Origin: Mesorhizobium sp. RMAD-H1
GTDB taxonomy: Bacteria; Pseudomonadota; Alphaproteobacteria; Rhizobiales; Rhizobiaceae
Reading direction: 5' to 3'
Length of the DNA: 64,000 nt
NCBI RefSeq assembly: GCF_014191375.1
Contig: NZ_JACHWN010000002.1
Coordinates: 372,001-436,000, forward strand
Below the pieces are notes generated by a model. That model was not told where the DNA came from. It was given only the letters and a program-made list of their open reading frames with translations, and made no database searches. This document shows, one piece after another, positions 5,278 to 22,044 of the stretch; position 1 is the first letter of the stretch; each line of letters begins with the position of its first letter. The position numbers and the translations under genes were made by a program.

Positions 5278-6003
5278 ATGGCCATGAGCCAAATTCTCCT
5301 CGAAATCTGCGTCGATGATGCGGAAGGGCTGGAAGCGGCGGTCGCAGGCGGGGCGGACCGCATAGAGCTCTGCTCGGCGCTGCAACTGGGCGGCCTCACC
5401 CCCTCGCCCGGCCTGACCGCCATCGCAGCGCGGGCAGCAGTTCCCGTCCATGCGATGATCCGCCCGCGTGCGGGAGATTTCGTCTATAGCAAAGGCGAAA
5501 TCGACCAGATGCTGCGCGATATCGATGCGGTGCGCGCGGCGGGGCTTGCCGGCGTGGTGCTCGGTGCAAGCAGGCCGGACGGCAGCCTTGACGATCATGC
5601 GCTTGCCCGGCTCAAGACACACGCCGATGGGCTCGGCACGACGCTTCATCGCGCTTTCGACCTGGTGCCCGATATCGATGAGGCCGTACGCATCGCCATT
5701 GAGGCCGGTTTCGAGCGCATCCTCACCTCCGGCCGTGCCCCGACCGCGCTTGAAGGGCTCGACGATCTGGAAAAGACCTTCGCGGCGGCTGACGGCAAAA
5801 TCACGATCATGCCCGGTGCGGGACTGACGGCGGAAAATGTCGGGAGCCTGCTCGCCCGCCTGCCCGTTGCCGAGATCCATGCCTCATGCAGCACCGTTTC
5901 TCCGGCACCAGATGAAAATATCATCCGCCTCGGCTTTGGTGATGGAATGCAGCGGAAGACAGACAAGCAGCGGGTGGCGGCGCTCAAGCAGAAGCTTGTG
6001 TAA
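5278..6003 (+). CDS. cutC: CutC family protein (copper homeostasis / TIM-barrel)
   Basis: 241 residues. It matches CutC, a cytoplasmic TIM-barrel protein first linked to copper tolerance in E. coli; its biochemical activity remains uncertain. Family features seen: an EICVDD opening, GGADRIELCSAL near residue 25, GGLTPS, a VHAMIRPRAGDFVYS stretch, and HRAFDLVPD in the middle. Two starts are possible, ATG 5278 and ATG 5284; neither has a strong ribosome site. It follows repeat element A and faces the LysR gene, with a hairpin in the gap. Confidence 0.9.
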   Translation: MAMSQILLEICVDDAEGLEAAVAGGADRIELCSALQLGGLTPSPGLTAIAARAAVPVHAMIRPRAGDFVYSKGEIDQMLRDIDAVRAAGLAGVVLGASRPDGSLDDHALARLKTHADGLGTTLHRAFDLVPDIDEAVRIAIEAGFERILTSGRAPTALEGLDDLEKTFAAADGKITIMPGAGLTAENVGSLLARLPVAEIHASCSTVSPAPDENIIRLGFGDGMQRKTDKQRVAALKQKLV

Positions 6004-6058
6004 AGGCGGGTAGTTAGAGCGACGTCTGGATTCAAAATGGAAGCGCTTTCGCTCTTTG

Positions 6059-6092
6059 ACACCCCCTCTGGCCTGCCGGCCAGAGGGGGTGT
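6059..6092. terminator. Bidirectional hairpin between convergent cutC and lysR genes
   Basis: A 15-bp perfect stem (6059-6073 and 6078-6092) with a 4-base loop lies between the cutC stop (6003) and the LysR stop (6133). Its arms resemble the outer ends of repeat family A, so it may be a shrunken copy. A T-rich stretch is weak on both sides, so intrinsic termination is plausible but not certain. Confidence 0.55.
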
Positions 6093-6132
6093 GAAGAAGC
6101 ACAGAACGGCTGGAGTTCAGCTCAACTGCCCC

Positions 6133-7035
6133 TCAAAACTTGCCCGTCCGCTGATACTTCTCGAAAATCCCGCGCAAATGTTCCGCCACCACCTGAACAT
6201 GCTGGCCGGCATCCTTGGCGACGATCATGCCGAGCTGGTAGGTGCCGAGCGGCGGCAGGCCGTGTTCCGGCCCGAGCGGGACGATCCCTTCACCCAGAAG
6301 CGTCTTGCCGAAAGGCGCGATGGCGAGATCGGAAAGGATGGCCGAGCGCTGCCCCGTGGTATGCGAGCTCATATAGGCGACACGGTATTCCCGCCCTGCC
6401 TTTTCCAGCACCTCCAGCGCATTGGCGCGCCAGACGCAGCCCTCCTCCCACATCGAGAGCGGCAGCGGGTTGCGCTCATGCGCAGTGCCGCCCTTGGCGC
6501 CGGCCCAGACCAGTTGCTCCGTCATCAGCACCTCGATATCGCTGGTCTTCAATCCTGCGTCGGAGATGTTGATCATGGTGATGTCGAGACGATGCTCGTC
6601 GATCCGCTTGCGCAGATTGACGCTCTGGTCGATGACCACATCGACGGTGACGTTCGGATGCGTCTCGGCGAAGCGCTTGAGCACGAAAGGCAGGACACAT
6701 TCGCCGATGTCGTCGGGAGATCCCAGCCGCACCACGCCCGAGACGGTCGGCGCCACGAATTTGGCCACCGCCTCGCGATTGAGCGTCAGCATGCGCCGGG
6801 CATAGCCGAGCAGCATCTCGCCATCGCTCGTCAGCGACACCGAGCGCGCGTCCCGCTCCAGAAGCGTCGTGCTGAGCGTTTCCTCCAGCTTCTTGATCTG
6901 CATCGACACGGCCGATGGCGTGCGGAACACCGCATTGGCGGCGGCAGAGAAGCTCCCCGTCTCCGCGATCATCACGAATGTCCTCAGGACATCCAGATCT
7001 AGGATCGGCAGCGGATGGTGCATCGGTGCGGTCAT
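6133..7035 (-). CDS. LysR-family transcriptional regulator
   Basis: 300 residues. An N-terminal winged helix (about residues 13-72, LDLDVLRTFVMIAETGSFS then AANAVF and SAVSMQIKKLE) is followed by the LysR effector-binding domain. It should bind DNA as a tetramer and respond to a small ligand that is not deducible here. It is divergent from the DUF1127 gene with 118 bases between starts; LysR proteins often control the divergent gene and themselves. The AT-rich gap holds TTTGATCAAATATT and TTTCGTTTGATTGAA, which could be operator half sites. That regulatory link is inference. Confidence 0.88.
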   Translation of the reverse strand: MTAPMHHPLPILDLDVLRTFVMIAETGSFSAAANAVFRTPSAVSMQIKKLEETLSTTLLERDARSVSLTSDGEMLLGYARRMLTLNREAVAKFVAPTVSGVVRLGSPDDIGECVLPFVLKRFAETHPNVTVDVVIDQSVNLRKRIDEHRLDITMINISDAGLKTSDIEVLMTEQLVWAGAKGGTAHERNPLPLSMWEEGCVWRANALEVLEKAGREYRVAYMSSHTTGQRSAILSDLAIAPFGKTLLGEGIVPLGPEHGLPPLGTYQLGMIVAKDAGQHVQVVAEHLRGIFEKYQRTGKF

Positions 7036-7153
7036 GATCGGCCTCTTTGATCAAATATTCTGAATTTATGTGTTCCTTAATTTCGTTTGATTGAACCTCA
7101 AAGCGCTCGCATAGTCAAGGTCATGAAGGGGTTGGGCATTCAGGAGAAAGACC

Positions 7154-7408
7154 ATGACCACCTATGACCATCGAGACCGCTACGAGTACAAGGAATGGCC
7201 GGACCTGTTTTCGGATGGAATCGTCCGGATGATCGAGGGTTTCGTGTCCCGGATCGCCGGAGTGTTCCGGAACAAGGCCAAATGGATCGCTGCGAAAAAG
7301 CGCGAGCGTGACACCATCCGCGCCCTGGCATGCCTGCCGGAGAATATCCGCCATGACATCGGCTGGCCCGATCTCTATGAGCGCCAGCACCGGAAGAACG
7401 GCAAATGA
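7154..7408 (+). CDS. DUF1127 domain small protein
   Basis: 84 residues, highly charged. The C-terminal third carries the DUF1127 pattern: a basic helix rich in Lys and Arg, then LACLPENIRHDIGWPD. DUF1127 proteins of alphaproteobacteria are short, Arg-rich, and in studied cases act in RNA turnover or phosphate and carbon control. The start is well supported by CAGGAGAAAG just upstream. It is divergent from the LysR regulator, a recurrent arrangement in this order. The specific role is unknown. Confidence 0.82.
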   Translation: MTTYDHRDRYEYKEWPDLFSDGIVRMIEGFVSRIAGVFRNKAKWIAAKKRERDTIRALACLPENIRHDIGWPDLYERQHRKNGK

Positions 7409-8652: not shown

Positions 8653-9031
8653 GTGTGGGCCACCTGAAGTGGCTCGCTTCGCATGAACCCCTTTCCAGTG
8701 ATGGCGATGCCGTCGAGGCATGGCTTCCAGTGGCAAACACTGGATAGCGGGGATGGAGATGATTGCGCTTTACCGCCACCCCTTCCTCAGGGGAAGAGAT
8801 TGCAACAGTTCTACTGGTAAGCGGTTGTGACAACGGAAAAAAAGATTCTCCCGGCGGAGAAGTGGAAGATTATCAGCTAGCCAAACTGCCGTCATTCCAG
8901 TGTTTGTCACTGGAATCCATGCCTCACCCTCTCCACGCTGAAAACAGTCCAGAATAGCGTCGCCCGCGATTCGGCGACGACAGGAGCCAACTCCGGACAC
9001 GCATGTCCTTGTTGCAAGCCCTATTCGCCTT
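8653..9031. repeat. 379-bp gene-free region with nested palindromic repeats
   Basis: No coding frame is credible here. Bases 8712-8744 carry the family C arm seen at 3997 followed by a short partner. Bases 8894-8916 form a 9-bp palindrome continuing into a diverged family C arm (to 8925). The two outer arms are inverted relative to one another, so 8712-8925 looks like a 214-bp unit. Inside, 8770-8870 resembles a decayed family A element (CCTCAGGGGAAGAGATT versus GATTCTCCCGGCGGAGAA). Confidence 0.6.
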
Positions 9032-9889
9032 CTACCGCCATTCCCAATCGTCCATCCGCTGCTGCCAGACGCGCTCGCCGCTCATGCAGTCGTAGGACGG
9101 CTTGGCCTGCACCTTGAGGACCGGCGGGTCTCCCGCATTGCCCGCCTGCATGGCTCCGCTTGCCGCGGGGTCCCCGGCCAGTTCAAGCATCAGCTTGCGT
9201 CGCACCGCCTCGGGAAACTGCTCCCATGAGGTGACGGGGATCATGAAGGCCCCCGGTCCCCCGATGACGCAATTGCCGTAATACTGGTCGAGATCCTTCA
9301 CGTCCCAGCCGCTGAAGAGCGACCCGCGCGTCATCAGCGGCAGGCCGTTGATGGTAATGCCCATCTCCAGCGCATCGGCCCGGGCATCGATCACCGGCCT
9401 GCCGTGATTGTTCGGCCCGTCGCCCGAAATGTCGATGATTCGCCGCTGCCCCTTGAAGCCGCTTTTGTCGAAAAGACCGGCGCTGAAATCGATCGCCGCC
9501 GAAATTGAGGTACGGCTTTGCGGCGGCGGCACTGGCTGGTCCAGTGCGGCGGCGAGTTTTTCCGCCGCTTGCTGGCTGTCCACCAGGGTCCAGGGAATGA
9601 TGACGCGATGAAAGCCGAAGCCGGCCCATTCAACGTAAGTGATCGCCACACGGCCATGGAGGCCTTCCAGAATGGCCTTGATCACCTGCGGGTGGCGGAG
9701 GGCCGCGACATAGCCGTCGCGCTGGATCTTCTGCTCGAACGGCTCCATGGACCGCGATGCATCGACGGCAAGCACCAGCTCCACATCGACCGGCAGGCGC
9801 TCCGTCGAGGCGCCGTTCTGGGCGCGCGCCGGAACCGAGGCCGTCAGGGCCACCATCATGATCAGGGCATGGATCGTCCGCAGTCCCAT
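9032..9889 (-). CDS. Secreted DUF1194 / VWFA-like protein
   Basis: 285 residues from ATG 9889. The first ~24 residues (MGLRTIHALIMM, then a hydrophobic run ending ARAQ) are a Sec signal peptide, so it should be periplasmic. The mature part begins with a von Willebrand A-like fold: VELVLAVDASRSM contains the DxSxS metal-site motif and DISGDGPNNHG follows later, as in DUF1194. Two late cysteines (in YYGNCVIGG and YDCMSG) may pair. A GTG at 9952 is open but would hide the signal peptide. Function of the family is not established; adhesion or protein-interaction roles are guesses. Confidence 0.82.
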   Translation of the reverse strand: MGLRTIHALIMMVALTASVPARAQNGASTERLPVDVELVLAVDASRSMEPFEQKIQRDGYVAALRHPQVIKAILEGLHGRVAITYVEWAGFGFHRVIIPWTLVDSQQAAEKLAAALDQPVPPPQSRTSISAAIDFSAGLFDKSGFKGQRRIIDISGDGPNNHGRPVIDARADALEMGITINGLPLMTRGSLFSGWDVKDLDQYYGNCVIGGPGAFMIPVTSWEQFPEAVRRKLMLELAGDPAASGAMQAGNAGDPPVLKVQAKPSYDCMSGERVWQQRMDDWEWR

Positions 9890-9997
9890 GCCCCATAATA
9901 GCACAGGAAATGAAAATGCCGCGGCGAAAACGCGCGCCGCGGCATCAATCACGTCCAGTTGAATGATACATTCAGTTGAACGGTGGCACCCGTGGGA

Positions 9998-12508
9998 TCA
10001 GGCCCTCAGGCGTTCATTTTCCGGATCGAACGGCGATTCCGGAATGACCGTCGCCCGGTGCAATTTGCCGAGGATCCGGATGTCGAGCTCCGTGCCGGGC
10101 GCGGAGAACTCCGGCTTGACCATGGCGAGCGCCAGGCTCTTGCCCAGACGCCAGCCATAGCCGCCATGGGTGGCGCGGCCGATCAGCTTACCGTCATGGT
10201 AGATCGGCTCCGAGCCGCGCGCATCGGCATCATGGACATCGTGCACCTCCAGCGTCACGAAATTCCACTTCAGCCCCTCCTCGCGGGCCTTCACCACCGC
10301 GTCGCGGCCGATGAACTCGCCCTTGTTGGGATGGACGAAGCGGTCGAGGCCGGATTCCAGCGCATTGTACTCAATCGAGAGTTCGCGCGGGATCAGGCGA
10401 TATGATTTCTCAACCGCCATCGCCGTCATGGCGCGAATGCCGAACGGCTTGATGCCGAACTCGGCCCCAGCCTCCATCAGAAGTTCATAGATCGTGTTCT
10501 GCTGCTCGATCGGATGATGCAGCTCCCAGCCGAGCTCGCCGACGAAATTGACGCGCAGCGCATGGGCGCTCGCCGGCCCGACACTGATCTGCCTGCCGGA
10601 AAGCCACGGGAAATCCTCATTCGCCAGGCTCGTGCGGGTCAGCTTCTGCAAGACCTTGCGGCTGTCCGGCCCGGCCAGCACGAGTACGCCCAGCATCTGC
10701 GTGATAGGCTTGAGCCGCACCGAGCCGTCCGTCGGCAGGAGCTTATAGAGATAATCGTGGTCATGGTTCTCAAAGGCGCCCGCCGAAACCAGATAGAACG
10801 AACCCGGCTTCCATTCATAAACGGTGAACTCCGAGCGCACCCCGCCGCTCTTGGTAAGCAGATGACAGAGCGCGATGCGGCCCTGCTTCTTCGGAATGCG
10901 GTTGGCGAGGATACTGTCCAGCCATGCGCGCGCGCCGGGACCGGACACTTCCATCTTGGCGAAGGCCGACATGTCGAGGAGGCCGACATTCTCGGTCACA
11001 TTCTTCACCTCGTTGCCGACATGCTCGAAATAATTCGAGCGGCGGAACGACCACAGCTCCTTCACCTTGCCGTCCGCATCGGGCTTGGGATGGTTGTGGT
11101 TCAGGAGCACATCAGGCTTGTCGAGCGTGGCGACATCGATGCCGTAGCCCTCGGGCGCGAACCAGTTGGCCCGCTCCCAGCCATAGACGGAGCCGAAGAC
11201 GGCGCCGAGCGCCTTCTGCCGGTCATAGGAGGGCGAACGCTTCAGCGGCCTTGCAGCGCCGCGCTCCTCGTCCGGATAGTGGACGGAGAAGACCTCGGCA
11301 TAGGCTTCTTCGTTCTTTTCCTTAAGGTACCCTTCCGTCGCGTAAGGGCCGAAGCGGCGCGGATCGACGCCCATCATGTCGATGGAGGGCTCGCCCTCGA
11401 CGATCCATTCGGCGAGCTGCCAGCCGGCGCCGCCTGCCGCCGTCACGCCGAAGGAATGGCCCTCATTGAGCCAGAAATTCTTGAGCCGCGGCGCGGGGCC
11501 GATGATCGGCGAACCGTCAGGCGTATAGGCGATGGCGCCGTTATAGACCTTCTTGATACCGACTTCTGCGAAGGCCGGGACACGGGCGATGGCCGTTTCG
11601 ATATAGGGCATCAGGCGCTCCAGATCCTCCTGGAAGAGCTCATATTCGCTCTCGTCGGAAGGACCGTCCACATAGCAGACCGGCGCGCCCTTTTCATAAG
11701 GCCCGAGCAGCAGGCCGCCATTCTCCTCGCGCATGTACCAGGAGGAGTCGCTCTCGCGCAGCACACCCATCTCCGGCAGGCCCTTGGCCTTGCGCTCGAG
11801 GATCGCCGGATGCGGCTCGGTGACGATATATTGATGCTCGACCGGGATCACCGGTACGTCCAGCCCGACCATCTGGCCCGTCTTGCGGGCGAAATTGCCG
11901 GTGGCGGAGATGACGTGCTCGGCAAGGATGTCGCCCTTGTCCGTCTTTACCAGCCATTGCCCGTCCGGCTGCTGCTCGATACCCGTCACCGTCGTGTTGC
12001 GATAGATCGTGGCGCCGCGATCGCGCGCGCCCTTGGCCAGCGCCTGCGTCAGGTCCGCCGGCTGGATATAGCCGTCGTCCGGATGCTGGATCGCGCCAAG
12101 AATGCCGTCCATCTCGGCGAGCGGCCAGATTTCCTTGACCTGCTCGGGCGTCAGCACCTTCACCGGCACGCCGATCGTCTCGGCCACACCGGCATAGTAC
12201 ATATATTCGTCCCAGCGATCCTTGGTGCGCGCCAGCCTGATATTGGTGCAATTGGTGAAACCGACATTCATGCCGGTTTCCTCCTGCAGTTCCTGATAGA
12301 ACTTCACCGAATATTTGTGAATCTGGCCGACGGAATAGCTCATGTTGAACAGCGGCAGGAGACCCGCCGCATGCCAGGTCGAGCCGGATGTCAGTTCCTT
12401 GCGCTCGATCAGGACGACGTCGCTCCAGCCTTTCTTCGCCAGATGGTAGAGCGTCGAAACGCCCACCACACCGCCACCGATCACCACCGCACGGGCATGG
12501 GTCTTCAT
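9998..12508 (-). CDS. Dimethylglycine/sarcosine dehydrogenase-like flavoprotein with GcvT domain
   Basis: 836 residues. The N-terminal half is a DAO-type FAD oxidoreductase: dinucleotide motif VVIGGGVVGVSTLYHLAKKG at residues 8-27 and GSTWHAAGLL, the site of covalent histidyl-FAD in this family. A linker domain follows, then a GcvT-like tetrahydrofolate-binding domain with VSGPGARAWLD and FVGELGWELHHP. Such enzymes oxidatively demethylate dimethylglycine or sarcosine and pass the one-carbon unit to THF. It stands alone on this strand. The exact amine substrate is not readable; a hairpin at 12532-12552 lies just upstream. Confidence 0.88.
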   Translation of the reverse strand: MKTHARAVVIGGGVVGVSTLYHLAKKGWSDVVLIERKELTSGSTWHAAGLLPLFNMSYSVGQIHKYSVKFYQELQEETGMNVGFTNCTNIRLARTKDRWDEYMYYAGVAETIGVPVKVLTPEQVKEIWPLAEMDGILGAIQHPDDGYIQPADLTQALAKGARDRGATIYRNTTVTGIEQQPDGQWLVKTDKGDILAEHVISATGNFARKTGQMVGLDVPVIPVEHQYIVTEPHPAILERKAKGLPEMGVLRESDSSWYMREENGGLLLGPYEKGAPVCYVDGPSDESEYELFQEDLERLMPYIETAIARVPAFAEVGIKKVYNGAIAYTPDGSPIIGPAPRLKNFWLNEGHSFGVTAAGGAGWQLAEWIVEGEPSIDMMGVDPRRFGPYATEGYLKEKNEEAYAEVFSVHYPDEERGAARPLKRSPSYDRQKALGAVFGSVYGWERANWFAPEGYGIDVATLDKPDVLLNHNHPKPDADGKVKELWSFRRSNYFEHVGNEVKNVTENVGLLDMSAFAKMEVSGPGARAWLDSILANRIPKKQGRIALCHLLTKSGGVRSEFTVYEWKPGSFYLVSAGAFENHDHDYLYKLLPTDGSVRLKPITQMLGVLVLAGPDSRKVLQKLTRTSLANEDFPWLSGRQISVGPASAHALRVNFVGELGWELHHPIEQQNTIYELLMEAGAEFGIKPFGIRAMTAMAVEKSYRLIPRELSIEYNALESGLDRFVHPNKGEFIGRDAVVKAREEGLKWNFVTLEVHDVHDADARGSEPIYHDGKLIGRATHGGYGWRLGKSLALAMVKPEFSAPGTELDIRILGKLHRATVIPESPFDPENERLRA

Positions 12509-12531
12509 ATCGTGTCATTCCCCTGAATAAG

Positions 12532-12552
12532 GCCGGGCTTGCGAGCCCGGCA
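12532..12552. other. GC-rich hairpin upstream of the dimethylglycine dehydrogenase-like gene
   Basis: GCCGGGCTT and AGCCCGGC form an 8-bp stem around a short loop, 24 bases upstream of the flavoprotein start on the minus strand. It has no T-run on either side. It could be an operator, a 5' leader structure or just a short palindrome. Confidence 0.35.
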
Positions 12553-12738
12553 TAGAGATGGATTTTTCCGCACTATGCCGAGCACCACCGCCCTTGGTAA
12601 GGCCTGTTTGCGACATGGCCACGAAATGCCGCGACGCATGTCATAGCACCGGCAATGGGGCAATGCTCTGCACATCCTTAACCCTTGCTCTTTTACCCTC
12701 CATCGCCGATGAATGGGGTGAGCGGGGGACGATTGATC

Positions 12739-14472
12739 ATGAGCAACAGGGCGATTGAAGGAAATGCGGGCGCGGACGAGAAAGCGGCATCGCTCCTGCG
12801 CCGCCTTGCCGGCGCGCCGCTCGCCTGGCTCGCGCTCGTCCTTCTCCTGCTCTGCTTGTTTCTCAGCATCCCCATCATCCTGCCGATCGGCCCGATGTAT
12901 TGGGATACCTATATCTATTTCGACGCCGCGCAGCGCATCCATAACGGCCAGATCCCCAATACCGACTTTCTGGCGCCGGTGGGCCCGCTCGCCTATTATA
13001 TCTTCGCGCTGGGGCTGAAGCTTTTCCCCGATGCCCAGCCGCTGCTGCTTGCCCAATGGATCATTCTGCTCGTCGCCGCCCCTCTCATGGCGATCGTCAT
13101 CGGGGATGTCGCCCGCAGGCGGCGCGGCATCGCCTTTGCCCTCCTCGTGCCTTTCTTGATCTTCGCCATCTGCCCGGCCAATGTGCAGTCTTTCCATTCC
13201 TATCCCGGCATGGATGGCTTCGGCATCTATAATCGCCATGCCACGCTGCTGCTTTACGTGCTGGTTTCGGCCCTCATGTTCGTGAAAGATGGCCGCCGGC
13301 TCGCCATCCTCTGCGGGCTTGCCATGCTCGCCCTTTTCCTCATCAAGGTCACCGGCTTTCTGGCAGGCGGGCTGATCGGGCTGCTGGCGCTTCTCTCGGG
13401 CCGCATCTCATGGCGCAGCGTCGTGCTGGCGGGCGCGATATTCCTCGCCATCCTTCTCTGCCTCGAACTCAACGGCCATATGATAACGGCCTATCTCGAC
13501 GAGATCGCCCTGCTCGTCCGCATGAACGAGGAGGCGCTGCTGCCGCGCTTCCTCACCGTCTTCTCCACCGATCTCGACATCATCCTGGCGAGCGCCGTTC
13601 TCATCCTCACCCTGGCCTGGACGGGGCGGAAGGCAATCCGCGCCGGCCTCGCCACCGGCGCAGACGTGAGGACGCTGCTCGACAGCAATTTCGTCTGGCT
13701 CGGCGTGGCTCTCCTCGCCGGCATCTTCTTCGAAACCCAGAATACCGGCAGCCAGGATTTCACCTTCCTCTGGCCGATCCTTCTGGCGATCTTCATCCAG
13801 TCCGCGCATGAACCCGCCTCACGGCGGCTGGCGATCACGGTGCTGATCGGGTTTGTCGTCATCCCTTCCGTTACCAAGATCGTCCACAAGACATTGCGCG
13901 CCGTCGCCGTGTCGCCGACCTATGTCGCCGCCCCTGTGAGCGATATGAAATCGCTGGGACAGATCTCCACCCGCAGGGACATCATGGAGCGGGCCCTGCT
14001 CCTGGAAAAGCATTATCGGCAATATGGCGACGCCTATAGCGACCTCTCCGGCAAAGGCCAGCTTCCGAGCTGGCAGCTCTATTCCGAGCTCGACTACCAG
14101 ATGTACTGGGTCATCTCGACCGACGAGGCGGTGAAGGCGATCAGGCGGTTCGAGGCGGCGAACGGCGTCCACCTCGCCACCATCATGAATCTCGATTTCG
14201 CCAATCCCTTCCCCTGGCTGCTCGATCGCGACGCCACGCGCCACATCCAGATCGGCGCCGATCCCTACCGCACCGTGCCGCCGCTCGACGATGCCACGCG
14301 GCGATCGATCGCGGAAACCGACGCCGTGCTCCTCCCGCATTGCCCGCTCACCACAGGCCGCCGCGCGCTTTACCGCATCTATGCCGATGCGCTGAAGGAC
14401 CGGCAGGTGGTCAAGCTCAATGATTGCTGGGATATGCTGCTGCGGCCGGGAACTGTGCCGACCACCCCTTGA
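12739..14472 (+). CDS. Polytopic membrane protein, probable GT-C glycosyltransferase
   Basis: 577 residues from ATG 12739 (GGGGGAC upstream). Hydrophobic helices start at about residue 30 and recur through residue 400, followed by a ~170-residue soluble C-terminal part. The first long loop carries YWDTYIYFDAAQRI and then TDFLAPVGPLAYY, the acidic-loop pattern of GT-C enzymes that use polyprenyl-phosphate sugars. Its end faces the aminotransferase end of the pentose-lipid cluster, 182 bases away. A role transferring the cluster's sugar on the periplasmic side is an inference; the frame at 12685 extends 18 residues upstream but has no ribosome site. Confidence 0.65.
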   Translation: MSNRAIEGNAGADEKAASLLRRLAGAPLAWLALVLLLLCLFLSIPIILPIGPMYWDTYIYFDAAQRIHNGQIPNTDFLAPVGPLAYYIFALGLKLFPDAQPLLLAQWIILLVAAPLMAIVIGDVARRRRGIAFALLVPFLIFAICPANVQSFHSYPGMDGFGIYNRHATLLLYVLVSALMFVKDGRRLAILCGLAMLALFLIKVTGFLAGGLIGLLALLSGRISWRSVVLAGAIFLAILLCLELNGHMITAYLDEIALLVRMNEEALLPRFLTVFSTDLDIILASAVLILTLAWTGRKAIRAGLATGADVRTLLDSNFVWLGVALLAGIFFETQNTGSQDFTFLWPILLAIFIQSAHEPASRRLAITVLIGFVVIPSVTKIVHKTLRAVAVSPTYVAAPVSDMKSLGQISTRRDIMERALLLEKHYRQYGDAYSDLSGKGQLPSWQLYSELDYQMYWVISTDEAVKAIRRFEAANGVHLATIMNLDFANPFPWLLDRDATRHIQIGADPYRTVPPLDDATRRSIAETDAVLLPHCPLTTGRRALYRIYADALKDRQVVKLNDCWDMLLRPGTVPTTP

Positions 14473-14499
14473 GGACGGCGCTGTTCATGTTGTGGGATC

Positions 14500-14612
14500 T
14501 GCCCCTCACCCTTACCCTCTCCCCGCAAGCGGGGCGAGGGAAGCATAGACATCGCCGCCTCTTTCTTCTCCCCGCGTGCGGGGAGAAGATGCCGGCAGGC
14601 AGATGAGGGGCA
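14500..14612. repeat. Palindromic intergenic repeat, family B copy 1 (short form)
   Basis: Starts TGCCCCTCACCCTTACCCTC, includes two internal hairpins (CCCCGCAAGCGGGG and CTTCTCCCCGCGTGCGGGGAGAAG), and ends with a diverged reverse complement of the start. It lies between two convergent genes and could end transcription from both. Longer copies flank ilvB at 50518-50671 and 52819-52976. Confidence 0.8.
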
Positions 14613-14654
14613 TTCCTATCCAGTAACTCTTCGTCAGGGAAAGCGAGTACCCCC

Positions 14655-16130
14655 CTACTTCACCTGCGCCTTGACGAAATCCTTCACGATCCGGACGATG
14701 CCGCGCGAGAGCACCTCGTCGAGCGCCGCGATGAACTGATCGACATGCGCCCTCTCGCAGATCAGGGGCGGCTCCAGCCGAACCACATTGCGGTTATATT
14801 CGGTGAAGGCCACCAGCACCCCATGGTCGCGCAGCAGATGACTGCCGATGAAGCCCGGCAGCGAGCCCTTCAGCTTGTCGTCGAGCATCGAGAGGACTGG
14901 CCGCAGCACGACAGGCACGGTCTTCGAGAAATCGTGAAACTCGAGGCCGACCATCAGCCCCTGCCCGCGCACCTCCTTGATCAGCGAAGGGTATTTCGCC
15001 TGCAGCGCTTTCAGCCGTTCGACGAGGTAGTCCCCGACCGCGGCGGAATTGTCGATCAGATGCTCGTCATAGAGCACGTTCAGCGCCTCGATGGCTGTGA
15101 TGCAGGCCTCGCCGATGCCGCCGAAGGTGGCCATGGCGTGGATCAGCGCCGTCTTCGGCGTCCCATAGGCCTTCATGTAGACCTCGCGCCGGGCGATCAT
15201 CGCCGCCATTGCGGTCTTGCCGCCGCCGAGAGATTTCGCCAGCGCCGTCACGTCGGGCACCACACCATGATGCTCAAAGGCGTAGAACCTGCCGGACCGT
15301 CCGAGCCCGCACTGCACCTCGTCGGCGACCCAGAGCACGCCGTACTGATCGCAAAGCGCCCGCAATTTCTGCCAGAATTCCGTCGGTGCGGTGATGATTC
15401 CCGCCCCGCCCTGGATCGTTTCCAACACGATGACGCCGATTTCGGGATCGGATTTGAAGGCGTTCTCGATCGCCTCGATATCGCCGAAGGGCACGCGCAC
15501 CGTATTGCCGACGAGCTGGAACTCGCCGCGATAGAGCTTGCCGTCGGTGACGTTGAGCACACCCTTGGTCTTGCCGTGGAAGGAATTCTCGGCATAGACG
15601 ACCTTCGGGCGCTTCGGTCCGGCCGCCCGCTCTGCCGCCTTCAGCGCCGCCTCCATGGCCTCCGAGCCGGAGGAGCCGAAGAACACCATGCCGAGATCGC
15701 CGGGGCTGCAGGCCGCGAGATTATGCGCAAGGGCTGCCGCATATTGCGACATGAAGGCCATCGCGATCTCGTGGCGCTTTTCCTCCTGGAAGGCCTGGCG
15801 GGCGGCGAGGATGCGCGGATGGTTGTGGCCGAAGGCGAGCGAACCGAAGCCGCCGAAGAAATCGAGGATCTTGCGGCCGTTCTGGTCGATATAATACATG
15901 CCCTCGGCGCGCTCGATCTTCACCTTGTTGAAGCCGAGCAGCTTCATGAAATGCAACTGCCCCGGATTGATATGGGCGGAAAAGAGCTCCGTCATCAGCG
16001 GCAGGTCCATGGATTTGGCCTGCTCCACCGTCAGGAGATCGGGTTTCGGCATCACCGCCGTCTCGCCCGCCGCCGCTGCCGCAGCATGGACCGGCACTTC
16101 CTTTTTCACACGCCCCACAGCCTTGTTCAT
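14655..16130 (-). CDS. Class III PLP-dependent aminotransferase
   Basis: 491 residues, in the acetylornithine/ornithine/putrescine aminotransferase superfamily. The PLP lysine lies in TALAKSLGGGKTA. Other family marks are FFGSSGSEAMEAALKAA (phosphate contact), WVADEVQCGLGRSG and the C-terminal RGQGLMVGLEF. An Ala-rich N-terminal extension of ~35 residues precedes the fold. It starts 18 bases after the epimerase stop, so it ends the minus-strand cluster. The amino acceptor is unknown; candidates are a keto or aldehyde sugar made by the cluster, or a polyamine. HpnO, which aminates a ribosyl-hopane, is in the same fold class but identity is unproven. Confidence 0.82.
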   Translation of the reverse strand: MNKAVGRVKKEVPVHAAAAAAGETAVMPKPDLLTVEQAKSMDLPLMTELFSAHINPGQLHFMKLLGFNKVKIERAEGMYYIDQNGRKILDFFGGFGSLAFGHNHPRILAARQAFQEEKRHEIAMAFMSQYAAALAHNLAACSPGDLGMVFFGSSGSEAMEAALKAAERAAGPKRPKVVYAENSFHGKTKGVLNVTDGKLYRGEFQLVGNTVRVPFGDIEAIENAFKSDPEIGVIVLETIQGGAGIITAPTEFWQKLRALCDQYGVLWVADEVQCGLGRSGRFYAFEHHGVVPDVTALAKSLGGGKTAMAAMIARREVYMKAYGTPKTALIHAMATFGGIGEACITAIEALNVLYDEHLIDNSAAVGDYLVERLKALQAKYPSLIKEVRGQGLMVGLEFHDFSKTVPVVLRPVLSMLDDKLKGSLPGFIGSHLLRDHGVLVAFTEYNRNVVRLEPPLICERAHVDQFIAALDEVLSRGIVRIVKDFVKAQVK

Positions 16131-16148
16131 CGCTGCTCCTCCCCGTTT

Positions 16149-17159
16149 CTATTCCGCCGCGAGCGGCACCATCTGTGCCACCGGTTTGCCGTCCATCTTG
16201 TTGCGATATTCCTTGTAGGCCGCGATCAGCATGTCCTCGTCGCGGAATTTCGGCTTCCATCCGAAGGCGGCAAACGCGCGTGACGTGTCCCGCACGCAAT
16301 ATTCGTCGGCGATTAGATATTGCTCTGGGTCCATCAGCGGCTTGTCCAGGCTATCCAGCAGCGCCAGCGTGCGCTTGACCGCCCAGGCGGGCGTCGGCAG
16401 CAGGATCGACTTCGAGTCGGCCTGCTTGATCAGCCCGCCCAGAAGATCGCGCACCGAAGGCGGATTGGACGAGCCGAGATTATAGGCATCGTTCGGCACG
16501 CCGTGCTCCCAGGCAAGCCTGGCGATCTCGGCGCAATCATAGACGGAGATGAACTGATAGGGGTTCTTGCCCGAACCGATCATCGGCACCGGCAGGTTGC
16601 GGTCGATCAGCTTGAACAGCTTTTCCAGGATGCCGAGGCGGCCCGGGCCTATGATCAGCCGCGGCCGCATGATCGAGATGTTCATGCCGCGCGTGCGCCA
16701 ATCGGCGGCGAGCGCCTCCGTCGCGGCCTTCGACTTGCCGTATTCGCCGAGCGGCGCGATCGGATGGTCCTCCGTCTGCGGCGACATGACGGTATGGCCA
16801 TAGACCATGTCGGTGGTGAACTGCACGAGCTTCGACGCACCTGCCCGGTCCATGGCGCTCATGATATGCGCCGCGCCGTGATAATTGACCGGCCAGAAGA
16901 AATCATGGCGCTTGGCGCGGATCTGCAGCGGCGAGAGCATCTTGGCCGCCAGATTATAGACCATGTCGTCCGGTTTCAGGCCGACCGCATTCACCTGCGC
17001 CTCGCTGGTGATGTCGCAATGGACGAACTTGGCCTTGTTGTAGTGCGGCAGGTCGCTCTTGACGATGTCGGCAACGACGACCTTCTCGCCACGGTTGACC
17101 AGATCATTTGCCAGATAGCGGCCGACGAAGCCGTCGCCGCCGAAGATGATGTGTCGCAT
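16149..17159 (-). CDS. NAD(P)-dependent epimerase/dehydratase (extended SDR)
   Basis: 336 residues. The N-terminal Rossmann motif GGDGFVGRYLAN differs from the usual GGxGFIG only in detail. The catalytic pair is YGKSK (Tyr and Lys four apart), with TTDMVYG supplying the Ser/Thr position. The C-terminal half is the variable sugar-binding domain. Within the DprE1/UbiA cluster it is the best candidate for the reductase that completes 2-epimerisation of a prenyl-linked ribose, although mycobacterial DprE2 is a classical rather than extended SDR. It lies 36-39 bases after the small transporter gene. Confidence 0.82.
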   Translation of the reverse strand: MRHIIFGGDGFVGRYLANDLVNRGEKVVVADIVKSDLPHYNKAKFVHCDITSEAQVNAVGLKPDDMVYNLAAKMLSPLQIRAKRHDFFWPVNYHGAAHIMSAMDRAGASKLVQFTTDMVYGHTVMSPQTEDHPIAPLGEYGKSKAATEALAADWRTRGMNISIMRPRLIIGPGRLGILEKLFKLIDRNLPVPMIGSGKNPYQFISVYDCAEIARLAWEHGVPNDAYNLGSSNPPSVRDLLGGLIKQADSKSILLPTPAWAVKRTLALLDSLDKPLMDPEQYLIADEYCVRDTSRAFAAFGWKPKFRDEDMLIAAYKEYRNKMDGKPVAQMVPLAAE

Positions 17160-17195
17160 GTTTCTTTCCCGCTATCCTGATGAAATCAGGCCCTG

Positions 17196-17630
17196 TTATT
17201 TCGAACCGGAATCGGTATGGGCCGCGGCGGAGGATGCCGCGCCCCCCGTCGTGCTTTCGCGCCCGCTCTGTGCGATCAGCACCGTGCCGATGCAGATGAA
17301 GGCGATGCCGGCGATCTTCAGCGTGCCGAGATCCTCCTTGAACACCGCCCACGCGAACACCGCCACCGCCACATAGGCAAGGCTCAGGAACGGATAGGCG
17401 AAGGAGAGATCGACCTTCGAGAGCACGTAGAGATGCGATGCCATCGAGATGACGAACACGGTGAGCCCGCCGAATACCCATGGGTTGAACACAATCTGGA
17501 AGATGCGCTGGACCAGCGTATCGGCACTGAAGCTGATCGGACCGAGCGAGATCATGCCGTATTTGAGCATGATCTGCGCCGCGGCATTGGTCATCACCGT
17601 GAACAGAATGAAGGGAATATATTTTGTCAT
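17196..17630 (-). CDS. Small EamA/SMR-type membrane transporter, probable lipid-linked sugar flippase
   Basis: 144 residues from ATG 17630; a GTG one codon upstream is also possible. Four hydrophobic helices are visible, about residues 5-30, 48-66, 74-94 and 100-118, then a Ser/Ala-rich tail. The size and helix pattern match small multidrug-resistance/EamA half-size proteins, including ArnE/ArnF, which flip undecaprenyl-phospho-aminoarabinose. Position between the oxidase and the epimerase suggests it moves the prenyl-phospho-pentose across the inner membrane. A drug exporter is the alternative. Confidence 0.75.
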   Translation of the reverse strand: MTKYIPFILFTVMTNAAAQIMLKYGMISLGPISFSADTLVQRIFQIVFNPWVFGGLTVFVISMASHLYVLSKVDLSFAYPFLSLAYVAVAVFAWAVFKEDLGTLKIAGIAFICIGTVLIAQSGRESTTGGAASSAAAHTDSGSK

Positions 17631-17843
17631 CACATCTTTGCCTTACCCGCCTTCAGGCTATGGCCGCTACCCGCTGCGACCTGTGCCGAAACGTTACATC
17701 GAAGAGGTTGAGAAGCCGCAAAGCGGTTATTTAAAATTCGAGCAATACGCAATTCGCGATTGCAATTGGTATTACACCTCTGCCCGGGTACCACAAGAGC
17801 ATGATCCCGGCCCAAGGTAAGGCTGCAGACCTACCGGACAAGG

Positions 17844-19160
17844 TCATGTAGCCAGAATCCCCGCCGTTCTCTGCCAGAAATTGGAGGAGAACGCCGGATC
17901 GCGCTGTTCCTCCAGTCTTCTCCACTGTGGAAACGACGCCGCGAAAGTCGCCGCCGACATCCTCTGGTCCTTGTAGGGATTGACTCGCCCTTCAGCCTCG
18001 ATCGTCAGGCGATCGAGCTCCGACAACAGCTCAAGCGTTTTTGCCCCCCGGTTGGGGAAATCGAGGGTCAGAGTATAGCCCGGCTGCGGGAATGACAAAA
18101 GCCCCGGCGAGCGGATCGTCCCGAACCGCTTCAGCACCGTCAGGAAAGAGACCTGGCCCGCCCTGCGCGTTGCTGACAGCATCGCCGGAATTGTCTCCCG
18201 CGCCTGGGCGTAGGGGATGACGCTCTGGTGCTGGTAGAGCCCCGCCGGACCATAGAGCCGGTTCCAGCCACGCAGGCTGTCGAGGGGGTAGAAGAACTGC
18301 TCGTAGCTGGAAAGATGCGGTTCCCCGCCCCGCCCCTTCAGATGATGATAGGCTGTATTGAAAAGCTTGAGGCTTGGCCGGTTCAGCGCAGAAAACGGCA
18401 ATTCGAACGGCACGCTGAGCCGTGCCGGCCTGGGGCTGGCGTTGAAATTGCTGTCTGCCGCATGGTTCCCGGTCAGAAGCAGGCCGCGCCCGGCCCGCCC
18501 GCCTTCCGCGAGCTGGTCGATCCAGGCAACCGCATATTCATTTTCCTCATCCGCCTTTTCCGCCAGCGCGAAGAACTGGTCGAGACCGGCAAAGCGCGTC
18601 ACCCGCTCCTCGACATCGAGCGAGAGAACGCGCATCAGCCTGATCCGGGCCGTCACGATCAACCCCGTCAAACCCATTCCGCCGATGGTTGCAGCGAAAA
18701 GTTCCGGATTCTGGGTGGGCGAACAGCTGCGCAACATCCCGTCCGAGCGCAGCAGCTCGAACGAGATCACATGGCAGCCGAAGGTGCCGCGGCTGTGATG
18801 ATTCTTGCCATGCACGTCATTGGCGATGGCGCCGCCCAGCGTGACGAAGCGCGTGCCCGGCGTAACGGGCAGGAAAAACCCGTGCGGCGCGGCGAAGGCG
18901 ATGATCTCGGCCAGAAGCACGCCGGCCTCCGCATCGAGAATGCCGCTTGCCGGGTCGAAGCCGCGTATCCGGCCCTTCGGGCGCATCTCGACCAGCGCCC
19001 CCCGGTCGTTGTGGCAGCTGTCGCCATAGGAGCGCCCATTGCCGAAGCCGAGCAGCGCGCCGGCACCGGCCGGGCCTTGCCGCAGCAGATGGTCGGCTTG
19101 CTGGAATGCGATAGCCTTTCGCGGCCGGCGCTCTATGCGGCCGAAGCTCTCCAGCGACAT
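17844..19160 (-). CDS. DprE1-like FAD-dependent oxidase (decaprenylphosphoryl-ribose 2'-oxidase family)
   Basis: 438 residues. A VAO-type FAD domain opens with GFGNGRSYGDSCHN near residue 38, matching GLGRSYGD of mycobacterial DprE1, followed by PVTPGTRFVTLGGAIANDVHGKNHH, here described in pieces: PVTPGTRFVTLGGAI then DVHGKNHH. The C-terminal part has LSFPQPGY and YKDQRMS, whose Lys397 matches the catalytic Lys418 of M. tuberculosis. The cysteine attacked by benzothiazinones (Cys387 there) corresponds to Thr365 here. The stop of the HAD-UbiA gene and this start share one base (TGATG), so they are translationally coupled. The enzyme should oxidise C2 of a prenyl-phospho-ribose. Confidence 0.85.
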   Translation of the reverse strand: MSLESFGRIERRPRKAIAFQQADHLLRQGPAGAGALLGFGNGRSYGDSCHNDRGALVEMRPKGRIRGFDPASGILDAEAGVLLAEIIAFAAPHGFFLPVTPGTRFVTLGGAIANDVHGKNHHSRGTFGCHVISFELLRSDGMLRSCSPTQNPELFAATIGGMGLTGLIVTARIRLMRVLSLDVEERVTRFAGLDQFFALAEKADEENEYAVAWIDQLAEGGRAGRGLLLTGNHAADSNFNASPRPARLSVPFELPFSALNRPSLKLFNTAYHHLKGRGGEPHLSSYEQFFYPLDSLRGWNRLYGPAGLYQHQSVIPYAQARETIPAMLSATRRAGQVSFLTVLKRFGTIRSPGLLSFPQPGYTLTLDFPNRGAKTLELLSELDRLTIEAEGRVNPYKDQRMSAATFAASFPQWRRLEEQRDPAFSSNFWQRTAGILAT

Positions 19161-20611
19161 CAGCGCATGCCCGCCGTCATCAGCATCGCACCGCCGATCG
19201 CGATCATCATGATGCTGCGCCAGTCGCTGAGCAGAAACACCACGGGATCCTCATGCATCTGGTCGCGATGCGCCAGGATCCATATCCGCAGATTGATGTA
19301 GAGCACGATCGGGCAGAGCGGCCAGATCATCCAGGGATAGGAATAGAGCGTCTTGACGGAATTGCTGTCGACATAAAGCGCCAGAACCAGGACCGCACCG
19401 AAGGCGGCCGCCACGCCGCTTTGCGCGATGACCGTGCGGTCAACGCCGCGATATCCCCTGCCGGCAAGTTTCTCGTTCTCTTCCGGCGGCGAATTGCTGA
19501 GTTCCACATAGCGCTTGACCAGCGCCAGCGACAGGAAAAAGAAGATCGAAAAGGCAAGCAGCCAGAACGAGCCGGGCGTCGCATTGGCGGCGGCGCCGGC
19601 GAGAAGCCGCACCGTATAGAGCCCCGCCAGCACCAGGACGTCGATGAGCAGCATACGCTTCAACGCGGCCGAATAGGCGGTCGTGACAAAGAGATAGAGC
19701 GTGAGCACCAGCATGTATTCGATCGGCAGCAGCGCGGCGATGCCATAGGAAAGCACGAGGAGCAGACCGGCGACGCCGACGCCGAACGGCACCGGCAATT
19801 CGCCGCTGGCGAAGGGTCTCTTCCGCTTGCGCGCATGCCGCCGGTCGAGCTGTACATCGAACAGATCGTTGAGGATATAGATCGACGATGCGGCCGCGCA
19901 GAAGGAAACGAAGGCGAGGAAGGTGCGCGTGAAGACATCGTGATAGAAAAGATCATGGGCGAGAATGGCCGGAACGAAGACCAGCGTGTTCTTCATCCAC
20001 TGATGCACGCGCAGCATTCTGAGGATGCTGCCAAGGCGCATCGGCGGCGCGGCGAAGAAACGGCTCACGCGATCGTCCGCGTCGCGGGACTCCCGCCACG
20101 TCCGCACCGCCCTGTCCGGCGCGACGACGATGGCCCGGCGCGCCTCGTCGAAAATGGCGATATCGGCCCGGGAATTGCCGGCATAATCGAAACCGCCCTC
20201 CCCGAAGGCTTCGACCAGCATCTTCAGCTTGGCGCCTGAGGCAAGATTGCGATAGCGATCCGTCGAATAGACCGCATCGAAGATGCCGAGATGTTTTGCC
20301 ACCGCTTCGGCGAAGGAGGTGGCTGCGGCCGTGGCGAGCACCAGCCTGCGGCCCGCCTCATGTTCCTTTTTCAGGAAGGCGAGGAAATCCTGGCGATAAG
20401 GCAGCGTTTCGGCATCGATGGCAACGCGCTCGGCGATTTCATGCTTCAGCCGGGCCTTGCCCTGCAGGGCCCAGAAAGGAAGCAGGAAGACATAGAAGAA
20501 ATTCTTCTTCAAAAGCAGGAAGATGCCTTCCCATAGAAGATCGGTGGCAATCAGTGTGCCATCCAGATCGACCGCTAGAGGTATCTTCTTATCGCTGTTG
20601 CGCGCATCCAT
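19160..20611 (-). CDS. HAD phosphatase-UbiA prenyltransferase fusion (phosphoribosyl-polyprenol synthase type)
   Basis: 483 residues from ATG 20611, preceded by TAGGAAAA. Residues 1-200 are a HAD domain with DLDGT at residues 15-19, the nucleophile motif. The second half is a UbiA prenyltransferase of about eight helices, with NDLFDVQLD near residue 247 and a second acidic loop. In mycobacteria the same two activities, 5-phosphoribosyl transfer to decaprenyl phosphate and 5'-dephosphorylation, are on separate proteins (Rv3806c and Rv3807c). The fusion and the coupled DprE1-like gene support that role. The frame runs 58 codons further up but those residues look non-coding. Confidence 0.84.
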   Translation of the reverse strand: MDARNSDKKIPLAVDLDGTLIATDLLWEGIFLLLKKNFFYVFLLPFWALQGKARLKHEIAERVAIDAETLPYRQDFLAFLKKEHEAGRRLVLATAAATSFAEAVAKHLGIFDAVYSTDRYRNLASGAKLKMLVEAFGEGGFDYAGNSRADIAIFDEARRAIVVAPDRAVRTWRESRDADDRVSRFFAAPPMRLGSILRMLRVHQWMKNTLVFVPAILAHDLFYHDVFTRTFLAFVSFCAAASSIYILNDLFDVQLDRRHARKRKRPFASGELPVPFGVGVAGLLLVLSYGIAALLPIEYMLVLTLYLFVTTAYSAALKRMLLIDVLVLAGLYTVRLLAGAAANATPGSFWLLAFSIFFFLSLALVKRYVELSNSPPEENEKLAGRGYRGVDRTVIAQSGVAAAFGAVLVLALYVDSNSVKTLYSYPWMIWPLCPIVLYINLRIWILAHRDQMHEDPVVFLLSDWRSIMMIAIGGAMLMTAGMR

Positions 20612-20907: not shown

Positions 20908-21843
20908 TTACCCTGCCGATGCCGGCTGGCGGAGATCGAGCGTCCATGTCTGCCCGACGAGATCCTTGCCGAATGAATGATGCGGCGCCTCGTCGACCAG
21001 CTGGAAACCGACCGCCTGGTAGATGCGCCGCGCGGAGACGAGCACGTCATTGGTCCAAAGGGTGAGCTTTTCATAGCCGAGCGCGCGCGCCCGCGCGATG
21101 CAGGTCTCGACCAGCCGCCTGCCGACGCCGAGCCCGCGCGCGCTTGGCTCCACATAGAGGAGCCTGAGCTTCGCCATGGCAGGATCGGAACTTTTCATCA
21201 GAAATACCGACCCGACGATGACGCCCGCCCGCTCGGCCACCCAGCCATCCTCGCGAACCGGATCGAAATGGGCGATGAAATTGCCGAATATCTCCGCAAC
21301 GAGCCCCTCATAGGTCCAGTCCCAGCCATATTCGCGATTGTAGAGGACGGCCTGGCGATGCGTGATCCACCCGATATCGCCCGGCCTGAGCCCGCGCAGC
21401 CGGATATCGGCGTGCTGCGCCTTGCCCCTGTCGAGAACGGTCCTGATGTCGTGCATCGCCGAGATGAGGCGCCCGTGGCCCTCCAGGTCGAGCGGCATCA
21501 GGATTGCTTCCATCTGCGATCGCGTGCCCTGCTCGAGCGCGGCAAACGCCTGGCGCCCGGCATCGGTCAGGGTCAGTTGCCGCCGCTTGCCATGTTCAGG
21601 GCTGACCCGGCTGCGCACCAGTCCCCGTGCGCGAAACCGCGCCACGATCCGGCTCAGATGCGCCTTGTCCATGGTGAGCGTGCGGGCGATGTCGGCCGCC
21701 GTCTGCTCGCCCCCATGCGCCAGCTCGTAGAGCACCCGGGCTTCGGCGAGCGAGAAATCGCTCTTGGAGAGATGCTCATCCAGAAGGCCGATCTCGCGCG
21801 TATAGAAGCGGTTGAAACTGCGGATCTCGTCGACAATGGTCAT
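20908..21843 (-). CDS. MarR-GNAT fusion protein
   Basis: 311 residues from ATG 21843. Residues 1-145 form a MarR winged helix (AARVLYELAHGG-like opening, QTAADIARTLTMDKAHLSRIV recognition region, then SRVSPEHGKRRQLTLTDAG wing). Residues 155-311 are a GNAT acetyltransferase with the acetyl-CoA loop LYVEPSARGLGVGRRLVE. This two-domain build is common in alphaproteobacteria; it may acetylate a small molecule and sense it, or the reverse. It stands alone with no obvious regulated neighbour. Function beyond the two folds is unknown. Confidence 0.85.
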   Translation of the reverse strand: MTIVDEIRSFNRFYTREIGLLDEHLSKSDFSLAEARVLYELAHGGEQTAADIARTLTMDKAHLSRIVARFRARGLVRSRVSPEHGKRRQLTLTDAGRQAFAALEQGTRSQMEAILMPLDLEGHGRLISAMHDIRTVLDRGKAQHADIRLRGLRPGDIGWITHRQAVLYNREYGWDWTYEGLVAEIFGNFIAHFDPVREDGWVAERAGVIVGSVFLMKSSDPAMAKLRLLYVEPSARGLGVGRRLVETCIARARALGYEKLTLWTNDVLVSARRIYQAVGFQLVDEAPHHSFGKDLVGQTWTLDLRQPASAG

Positions 21844-22044
21844 CGATGCACCCGATATCAATGTTGTGACAGACAACACTTACCGCAGGATGCGAGGCTT
21901 GAGAAGCCGTTTTCATTTCCGGCAAATTTCGGAAACGGACGAATTCCCACCAATATTGCTGTGAAAACAAAAAATTGGAGCGATTCCCGGATTCAGAACA
22001 GGAGCCGCTCCAACACAAAGACGATCTGTCTGGACTAAAAAAGC

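Follow-up and report, generated by a model that had tools for sequence, protein, structure and literature searches.

Which sugar is made where a lipid-linked pentose pathway carries an aminotransferase at the step that related loci give to DprE2? This question is raised by six genes at positions 12739-20611 of a 64,000-nucleotide stretch of Mesorhizobium sp. RMAD-H1 (contig NZ_JACHWN010000002.1, positions 372,001 to 436,000, in a genome of 5.1 Mb and 21 contigs), hereafter called the window and numbered from its first letter. Genes were identified by open reading frame (ORF) calling together with Pfam and NCBIfam profile searches, and the six ORFs named in an earlier note on this DNA are all present at the positions given below. 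Five of them are on the minus strand and are transcribed in the order HAD-UbiA fusion, DprE1-type oxidase, SMR transporter, extended short-chain dehydrogenase/reductase (SDR) and class III aminotransferase; a predicted GT-C-type membrane protein is encoded on the plus strand, opposed to these five. We put at roughly 0.55 the probability that this cluster makes an aminated pentofuranose on polyprenyl phosphate, which is then handed to a surface acceptor. What is new here is the step after DprE1, an aminotransferase in place of DprE2; the fusion itself is known.

In relatives from the gammaproteobacteria and elsewhere, DprE1 is followed by a gene for a classical SDR of about 245 residues, here called DprE2-like by its place and family rather than by comparison with mycobacterial DprE2, and annotated plasmid records of Agrobacterium and Burkholderia list UbiA, an FAD-binding oxidoreductase, an SDR, a second SDR/epimerase, an NAD(P)/FAD-dependent oxidoreductase and GtrA. 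In the window and its relatives the DprE2-like gene is absent from the locus, and a block of SMR, SDR and aminotransferase genes follows DprE1. The aminotransferase lies within 8 kb of DprE1 at 70 of 80 named DprE1 loci, and DprE2 lies within 2 kb at 6; 4 loci have neither gene and none has both. As to the four with neither, L036 breaks off within an aminotransferase match; in Hoeflea (L066) the SDR is encoded at another place of the genome, which was searched for the SDR and not for the aminotransferase; DprE1 stands alone in L101; and the contig of L102 ends about 3.3 kb past DprE1. A class sample held 36 genomes with DprE1, the window's own included; 30 loci were fetched, the six lowest-scoring being left out, and of the 29 non-own loci counted DprE2 adjoins DprE1 in 27, the aminotransferase in one and neither in one. 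Fourteen extra DprE1 stretches (within L145-L166), picked as unlinked, DprE1-only or distant, were kept outside these counts, as were loci L001-L026 with their 1.5-kb flanks; they show the aminotransferase in 3 (one being the window and one the locus of genome G265 again), DprE2 in 3, neither in 8 and both in none.

In at least two lineages, then, DprE2 and the aminotransferase stand in for one another after the same oxidase. The simplest account is that both would act on the product of this oxidase, the 2-keto sugar lipid, DprE2 by reducing it to arabinose and the aminotransferase by aminating it. No DprE2 was found at the window's locus (L146), nor in its genome at E ≤ 1e-25 with 18 of 60 first-look SDR candidates scored, which makes arabinose unlikely as the product. 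The earlier note had read the cluster as a mycobacterial-type pentose pathway with a hint of an aminated pentose: the entry by HAD-UbiA and a DprE1-type oxidase stands, the arabinose product, for which a DprE2-like gene is missing, probably does not, and the amination has become the strongest part of that note, backed by the gene replacement.

The aminotransferase (14655-16130, minus strand) is a class III PLP enzyme by its match to Aminotran_3 (293 bits, 4e-87), with K299 placed by alignment with PigE. It resembles PigE (4ppm, 256 bits) and putrescine aminotransferases, no NCBIfam model among the best 25 of 69 matches it above its curated cut-off, and 200 of its 491 residues are near-invariant across 85 sequences. 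Its distribution was followed at E ≤ 1e-100, with E ≤ 1e-50 for DprE1 and E ≤ 1e-25 for DprE2. Of 151 genomes of the window's family, 80 hold the aminotransferase and 83 DprE1, all 80 lying within the 83 (Fisher p 6.5e-40, without correction for kinship); the remaining three are G588, G723 and G809. DprE2 occurs in four family genomes (G588, G745, G767 and G774), each time beside a DprE1; the aminotransferase is missing from G588, and in G745 it lies near a second DprE1. Counting the window's genome, the aminotransferase occurs in no more than 2 genomes of 289 in the class sample and 7 of 398 in the phylum sample, these 7 all in one order, so that it is not a housekeeping enzyme. It was also found in one of 151 genomes of the Methyloprofundus family and one of the two in the order of G265, and among 72,556 plasmid records the cluster is on one, from Neorhizobium SOG26, a record without annotated features.

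At the level of sequence, then, the protein families, their catalytic residues, the linkage of the genes and the exclusivity of the two enzymes are established. In 69 of the 80 named loci DprE1 has UbiA, SDR and aminotransferase genes nearby, in several arrangements, and the cluster is therefore not a chance assembly; the commonest order, in most named loci, is that of the window's five minus-strand genes. In the window the ATG of the oxidase gene shares one base with the stop codon of the HAD-UbiA gene (TGATG), which makes the translational coupling noticed earlier plausible. About 210 bases lie between the oxidase gene and the SMR-SDR-aminotransferase block, inside which the spacings are 36 and 18 bases. 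Since GC content and third-position GC of the cluster are near the values of its neighbours, the window gives no sign of recent import.

The HAD-UbiA fusion (19160-20611, minus strand) matches Pfam HAD (8.9e-10) and then UbiA (7.8e-20), and over its full length NF006088/PRK08238 at 630 bits (cut-off 351). On the phosphoribosyltransferase model PRK12324 its UbiA half reaches 157 bits, compared with 32 for a quinone UbiA model, and in the PDB it matches at E ≤ 0.001 nothing but two chains of the phosphoribosyltransferase of mycobacteria (8j8j, 99.6 bits). A UbiA domain from a quinone prenyltransferase clade would have undone the pathway assignment; by these scores, rather than by a full tree, the protein falls on the phosphoribosyltransferase side, and the scores together with two further UbiA-family proteins in the genome, each above 210 bits to Pfam UbiA, exclude a quinone or heme UbiA. 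The HAD nucleophile Asp and the UbiA motifs NDxxDxxxD and RxxE, by which the PPPRS-PRP type is recognized, are all present, and D15, D17, N248, D249, D252, D256, R367 and E370 are near-invariant (≥97%) in 107 sequences. These positions correspond to D18, N247, D248, D251, D255, R366 and E369 of Citrobacter ORF15; according to the main text of the source, all seven were studied there, and the R366 and E369 mutants stayed active (PMC11127046). A predicted polyprenyl-phosphate phosphoribosyltransferase joined to a 5'-phosphatase is thus well supported by profiles and motifs. The fusion of phosphatase and synthase pointed out in the earlier note is real, and as a novelty it was preceded by ORF15, which that text describes as biochemically characterised (PMC11127046).

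The oxidase (17844-19160, minus strand), an FAD enzyme, reaches 340 bits on the NCBIfam DprE1 model NF053785, the next model scoring 41; since the curated cut-off is 500 bits, we call it DprE1-type and do not claim an equivalog. The PDB DprE1 matches its residues 27-422 at 247 bits, the next family at 37, and it keeps Y60, G117, H132, K134, Q334, Q336, K367 and K418 (M. tuberculosis numbering). A generic lactone or glycolate oxidase is ruled out by the same two sets of scores, and it is on these, in place of a full superfamily tree, that the grouping with DprE1 questioned earlier is decided. The predicted reaction is 2'-oxidation of a lipid-linked ribofuranose. At the position of C387, the target of benzothiazinones, the window's oxidase has Thr, as do 28 of 30 aminotransferase-partnered rows of the tree described below, Ala being found in 35 of 36 DprE2-partnered rows; with Thr or Ala there, covalent inhibition of the benzothiazinone type is not expected.

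The DprE1 tree comprised 79 chosen rows (the window, 35 of the 80 named loci, 27 from the class sample, 13 fetched stretches, 2 further loci and M. tuberculosis), of which the 66 having a partner entered the topology tests. On it the partner label, aminotransferase or DprE2, needs three changes. A single origin of all 30 aminotransferase-partnered DprE1s was rejected in the approximately unbiased test (p-AU 1e-65), as was a single clade of G265 and the other 28 with Methyloprofundus left out (p-AU 5e-10), and these values support at least two independent pairings with the aminotransferase. The locus of the distant lineage G265 (L145) runs SMR, SDR, UbiA, DprE1, aminotransferase; compared with the window, its DprE1 is 40-41% and its aminotransferase 67% identical, and the DprE1s nearest to its own in the tree adjoin DprE2, the slot in which G265 has the aminotransferase. 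In Methyloprofundus (L095) HAD-UbiA, DprE1, aminotransferase and a PMT_2-family membrane protein stand in a row, the first three genes having similar GC content, and no SDR of the window's kind was found in the 2.8-Mb genome at E ≤ 1e-20.

The tree also shows oxidases of other descent in genomes that carry the block. In G715, G720, G761 and G774 the HAD-UbiA gene stays with the block and DprE1 lies elsewhere, and in G755, G767, G724 and G810 the stretch fetched has the block and neither UbiA nor DprE1. The only DprE1 found in G715, G720, G755, G761, G767 and G774 is encoded elsewhere and falls outside the rhizobial DprE1 clade, and these six look as if they had replaced a lost native one. G774 holds a UbiA-DprE1-DprE2 set and, on another contig, HAD-UbiA, SMR, SDR and aminotransferase without a DprE1 of their own (L158, L157), and in this genome one oxidase may feed two pathways. 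The pSymB record of Sinorhizobium meliloti Ak57 (L174) has at 5869-7194 a lone DprE1-type gene between phospholipase and YceI/cytochrome b genes, with which L101, L164 and L165 agree, and to the eye the whole five-gene cluster of Ensifer L070 lies in similar surroundings; in loci of this type the other four genes, for HAD-UbiA, SMR, SDR and aminotransferase, appear to have disappeared while DprE1 stayed.

On the pathway that we propose, the DprE1-type oxidase would oxidise C2' of the lipid-linked sugar to a keto sugar, and the class III aminotransferase would turn the 2'-keto group into an amine, in place of the reduction by DprE2, giving a 2-amino-2-deoxy-pentofuranosyl lipid. The GalE-like SDR would probably set another stereocentre, such as C3, the SMR protein would flip the amino-sugar lipid, and an ArnT/AftA-like GT-C enzyme would transfer the sugar outside the membrane. 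The more specific version is tentative, and we would give it slightly less than an even chance: that 2-amino-2-deoxy-pentofuranose would be a new lipid-linked sugar, formed by transamination of a keto sugar on polyprenyl phosphate, and that an SMR-SDR-aminotransferase cassette joined a resident UbiA-DprE1 pair and replaced DprE2. Epimerisation by the SDR could yield a lyxo- or xylo-configured amino sugar.

The two small partners have the families assigned to them earlier. The extended SDR (16149-17159, minus strand) matches Pfam Epimerase at 119 bits and carries the motif Y140-x3-K144, with T115, T116, D117, Y140 and K144 near-invariant in 86 sequences. GalE-type epimerases are its closest solved structures (GalE-1, 72 bits), and its stretch TTDMVYG is without the Glu of dehydratases; an epimerase or oxidoreductase acting on the sugar lipid is predicted, which looks accessory since it is absent from the Methyloprofundus operon. 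The SMR/EamA protein (17196-17630, or from an alternative GTG start at 17633, minus strand) scores 28.2 bits on EamA and remains below the NCBIfam cut-offs of ArnF (55.7 against 99 bits) and ArnE (37.5 against 92); it is predicted to be an ArnE/ArnF-like flippase.

The membrane protein (12739-14472, plus strand) is matched by neither Pfam nor NCBIfam models at E ≤ 0.001, and its earlier description as GT-C-like is borne out by predicted fold. An AlphaFold2 model from 30 sequences (pLDDT 91.5, pTM 0.91) finds in Foldseek ArnT (5ezm, E 2e-6, probability 1.00), AftA (8if8, E 1.9e-3) and AftB (9dlf, E 7.4e-3); since the TM-scores are about 0.4 or less (0.37-0.43 with ArnT and AftA), this speaks for a common fold class and not for close kinship. 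We predict a GT-C-type glycosyltransferase that would use the flipped sugar lipid, and a synthase, a predicted flippase and a predicted transferase are thereby encoded together. No homology was found to a 547-aa protein of Methyloprofundus or a 573-aa neighbour in G265. In L163 (G588) three tandem homologues (8727-13511), of which the first shares 34-35% identity with each of the other two, follow a UbiA-DprE1-DprE2 set, which ties this protein family to pentofuranose lipids.

Several points weigh against the proposed aminated pentofuranose. We infer every reaction given here, and likewise the product, its stereochemistry, the carbon that bears the amine, the part played by the SDR and the acceptor. 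An aminopentofuranose in a bacterial glycan was not found under any of six names in a literature search. DprE1 occurs without either partner (G723, G809, L101), a divergent DprE2 could have been missed among the SDR candidates of the window's genome, and the replacement DprE1s of G767 and G774 adjoin DprE2 and may serve a separate arabinose pathway. The membrane-protein gene is present in 32 of the 70 aminotransferase-bearing named loci, some of which are cut by contig ends, and a GT-C near every aminotransferase is ruled out. Methyloprofundus L095 is a single 11-kb contig of a metagenome-assembled genome and the only match in its family, and with G265 left out a single clade including it was not rejected (p-AU 0.47). 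Three independent origins can accordingly not be upheld, G265 alone being statistically separate, and the Methyloprofundus pairing may or may not be a third. Five DprE1 columns separate the aminotransferase set from the DprE2 set and are common within the rhizobial clade; almost all are absent in G265 and Methyloprofundus, so they mark a clade and not a partner, and a partner-specific DprE1 pocket was dropped.

The last of these points concerns the SDR, which accompanies the aminotransferase in 69 of the 70 named loci and could for that reason be the reducing enzyme. It might then be a non-homologous stand-in for DprE2, the lipid first becoming arabinose or xylose and the aminotransferase acting later or on another carbon (a C3 ketone, or a C5 aldehyde formed by one of the oxidoreductases) to give a pentose aminated at C3 or C5. 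Such a route would fit the terminal amines that class III aminotransferases often produce. It would also fit ORF13 of Citrobacter, a GalE-aligned SDR that according to the main text of its description converts Ribf to Xylf (PMC11127046). Against it, the Methyloprofundus aminotransferase directly follows DprE1, in a genome where no such SDR was detected at E ≤ 1e-20 and with no DprE2-like gene found beside DprE1, and in G265 it is the aminotransferase, not the SDR, that fills the DprE2 slot. We regard this route as unlikely, and as the most serious competitor of a 2'-transamination.

A weaker case can be made for the SMR-SDR-aminotransferase block as a separate amine or amino-sugar pathway that is a mere neighbour of a ribose or arabinose lipid pathway. 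It forms a block of its own, which in five Bosea loci and L100 lies on the opposite strand beside UbiA-DprE1 (the match there covering mainly the UbiA part), as it also does in G695 (L166), and in several genomes, such as G724 and G810, it is apart from UbiA-DprE1 altogether. Yet all 80 aminotransferase genomes of the family hold DprE1, the unlinked ones included, the arrangements are several and in L145 the block is split around UbiA-DprE1, and aminotransferase and DprE2 exclude each other at the locus; mere neighbourhood is therefore improbable. An ordinary DprE1/DprE2 arabinose pathway, with a divergent reductase hidden among the 60 first-look SDR candidates and the aminotransferase a housekeeping enzyme, is just as improbable, given that DprE2 so regularly adjoins DprE1 in the class sample and not here, and that the aminotransferase is so rare in the class and phylum samples.

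Parts of an aminated pentofuranose pathway are familiar from other systems. In the Arn pathway, which provides 4-amino-4-deoxy-L-arabinose for lipid A, there is, as proposed here, an aminated pentose on polyprenyl phosphate, an SMR-type flippase and an ArnT-type GT-C; it differs in its start from UDP-glucuronate and its pyranose product, whereas the window's pathway would start from phosphoribosyl pyrophosphate on the lipid and use a class III aminotransferase. By profile neither the flippase nor the transferase is of the Arn kind, the one being below the ArnE and ArnF cut-offs and the other without a Pfam match at E ≤ 0.001, and the fold alone is ArnT-like. Kelly et al. (2024) describe, in the main text, a fused synthase-phosphatase, a flippase and a GT-C, together with an SDR epimerase that serves xylofuranose and homologues of DprE1/E2 that serve arabinofuranose (PMC11127046). 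With the prototype of this three-component extracytoplasmic addition of pentofuranose, ORF12-15 of Citrobacter youngae, the window has in common the fused HAD-UbiA, a flippase, a GT-C and an optional GalE-like SDR that changes the pentose; there the flippase is of the MATE type, the GT-C founds GT136, no DprE1 is described for the prototype in the text available, and the word aminotransferase is absent from the main text (PMC11127046). The mycobacterial decaprenyl-phospho-arabinose pathway (Rv3806c, DprE1, DprE2) shares a UbiA phosphoribosyltransferase, a DprE1-type oxidase, an SMR-type exporter and a GT-C (PMC11127046); unlike it, the window has an aminotransferase where DprE2 was not found, a fused HAD phosphatase and Thr at C387 of DprE1.

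In Azorhizobium and Rhizobium IRBG74 the noeCHOP/noeCNHOP genes make arabinose for Nod factors; of the four steps that lead to decaprenylphosphoryl arabinofuranose, the text available gives three to NoeC, NoeH and NoeO, and it treats NoeP as the transferase, with no mention there of an aminotransferase (PMC5080398), and we liken this operon to the window by function and not by sequence. A flavoprotein survey of Brucella ovis includes a protein with DprE1 as closest structural homologue and, in the part available, gives no pathway for it (PMC9045290), and a term search of the available text of a paper on Phyllobacterium trifolii lipid A found no pentose mentioned (PMC5644692). No report of an aminotransferase branch of such a pathway was found in a literature search that covered few subscription papers.

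Between the cluster and an MscS-type channel gene, the window encodes a MarR-type regulator fused to a GNAT acetyltransferase (20908-21879), for which many relatives have no match at the corresponding place. A DUF1194 protein without assigned function (9032-9952) is near the cluster in many relatives.

DprE1 is known as one half of an epimerase, and here its ketone seems to be diverted by a transaminase. If this is true, exchange of a single gene would turn an arabinose pathway into an amino-sugar pathway, and its product would be a furanose counterpart of aminoarabinose in about half of the family genomes sampled (80 of 151). A sugar would thereby be added to the bacterial repertoire, the conserved, unnamed aminotransferase of many rhizobia and their relatives would gain a function, and its gene would be a genetic marker by which to track down the glycan or lipid bearing the sugar. 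It may be speculated that a positively charged sugar at the surface could affect the charge of the envelope and the contact with plant or other hosts.

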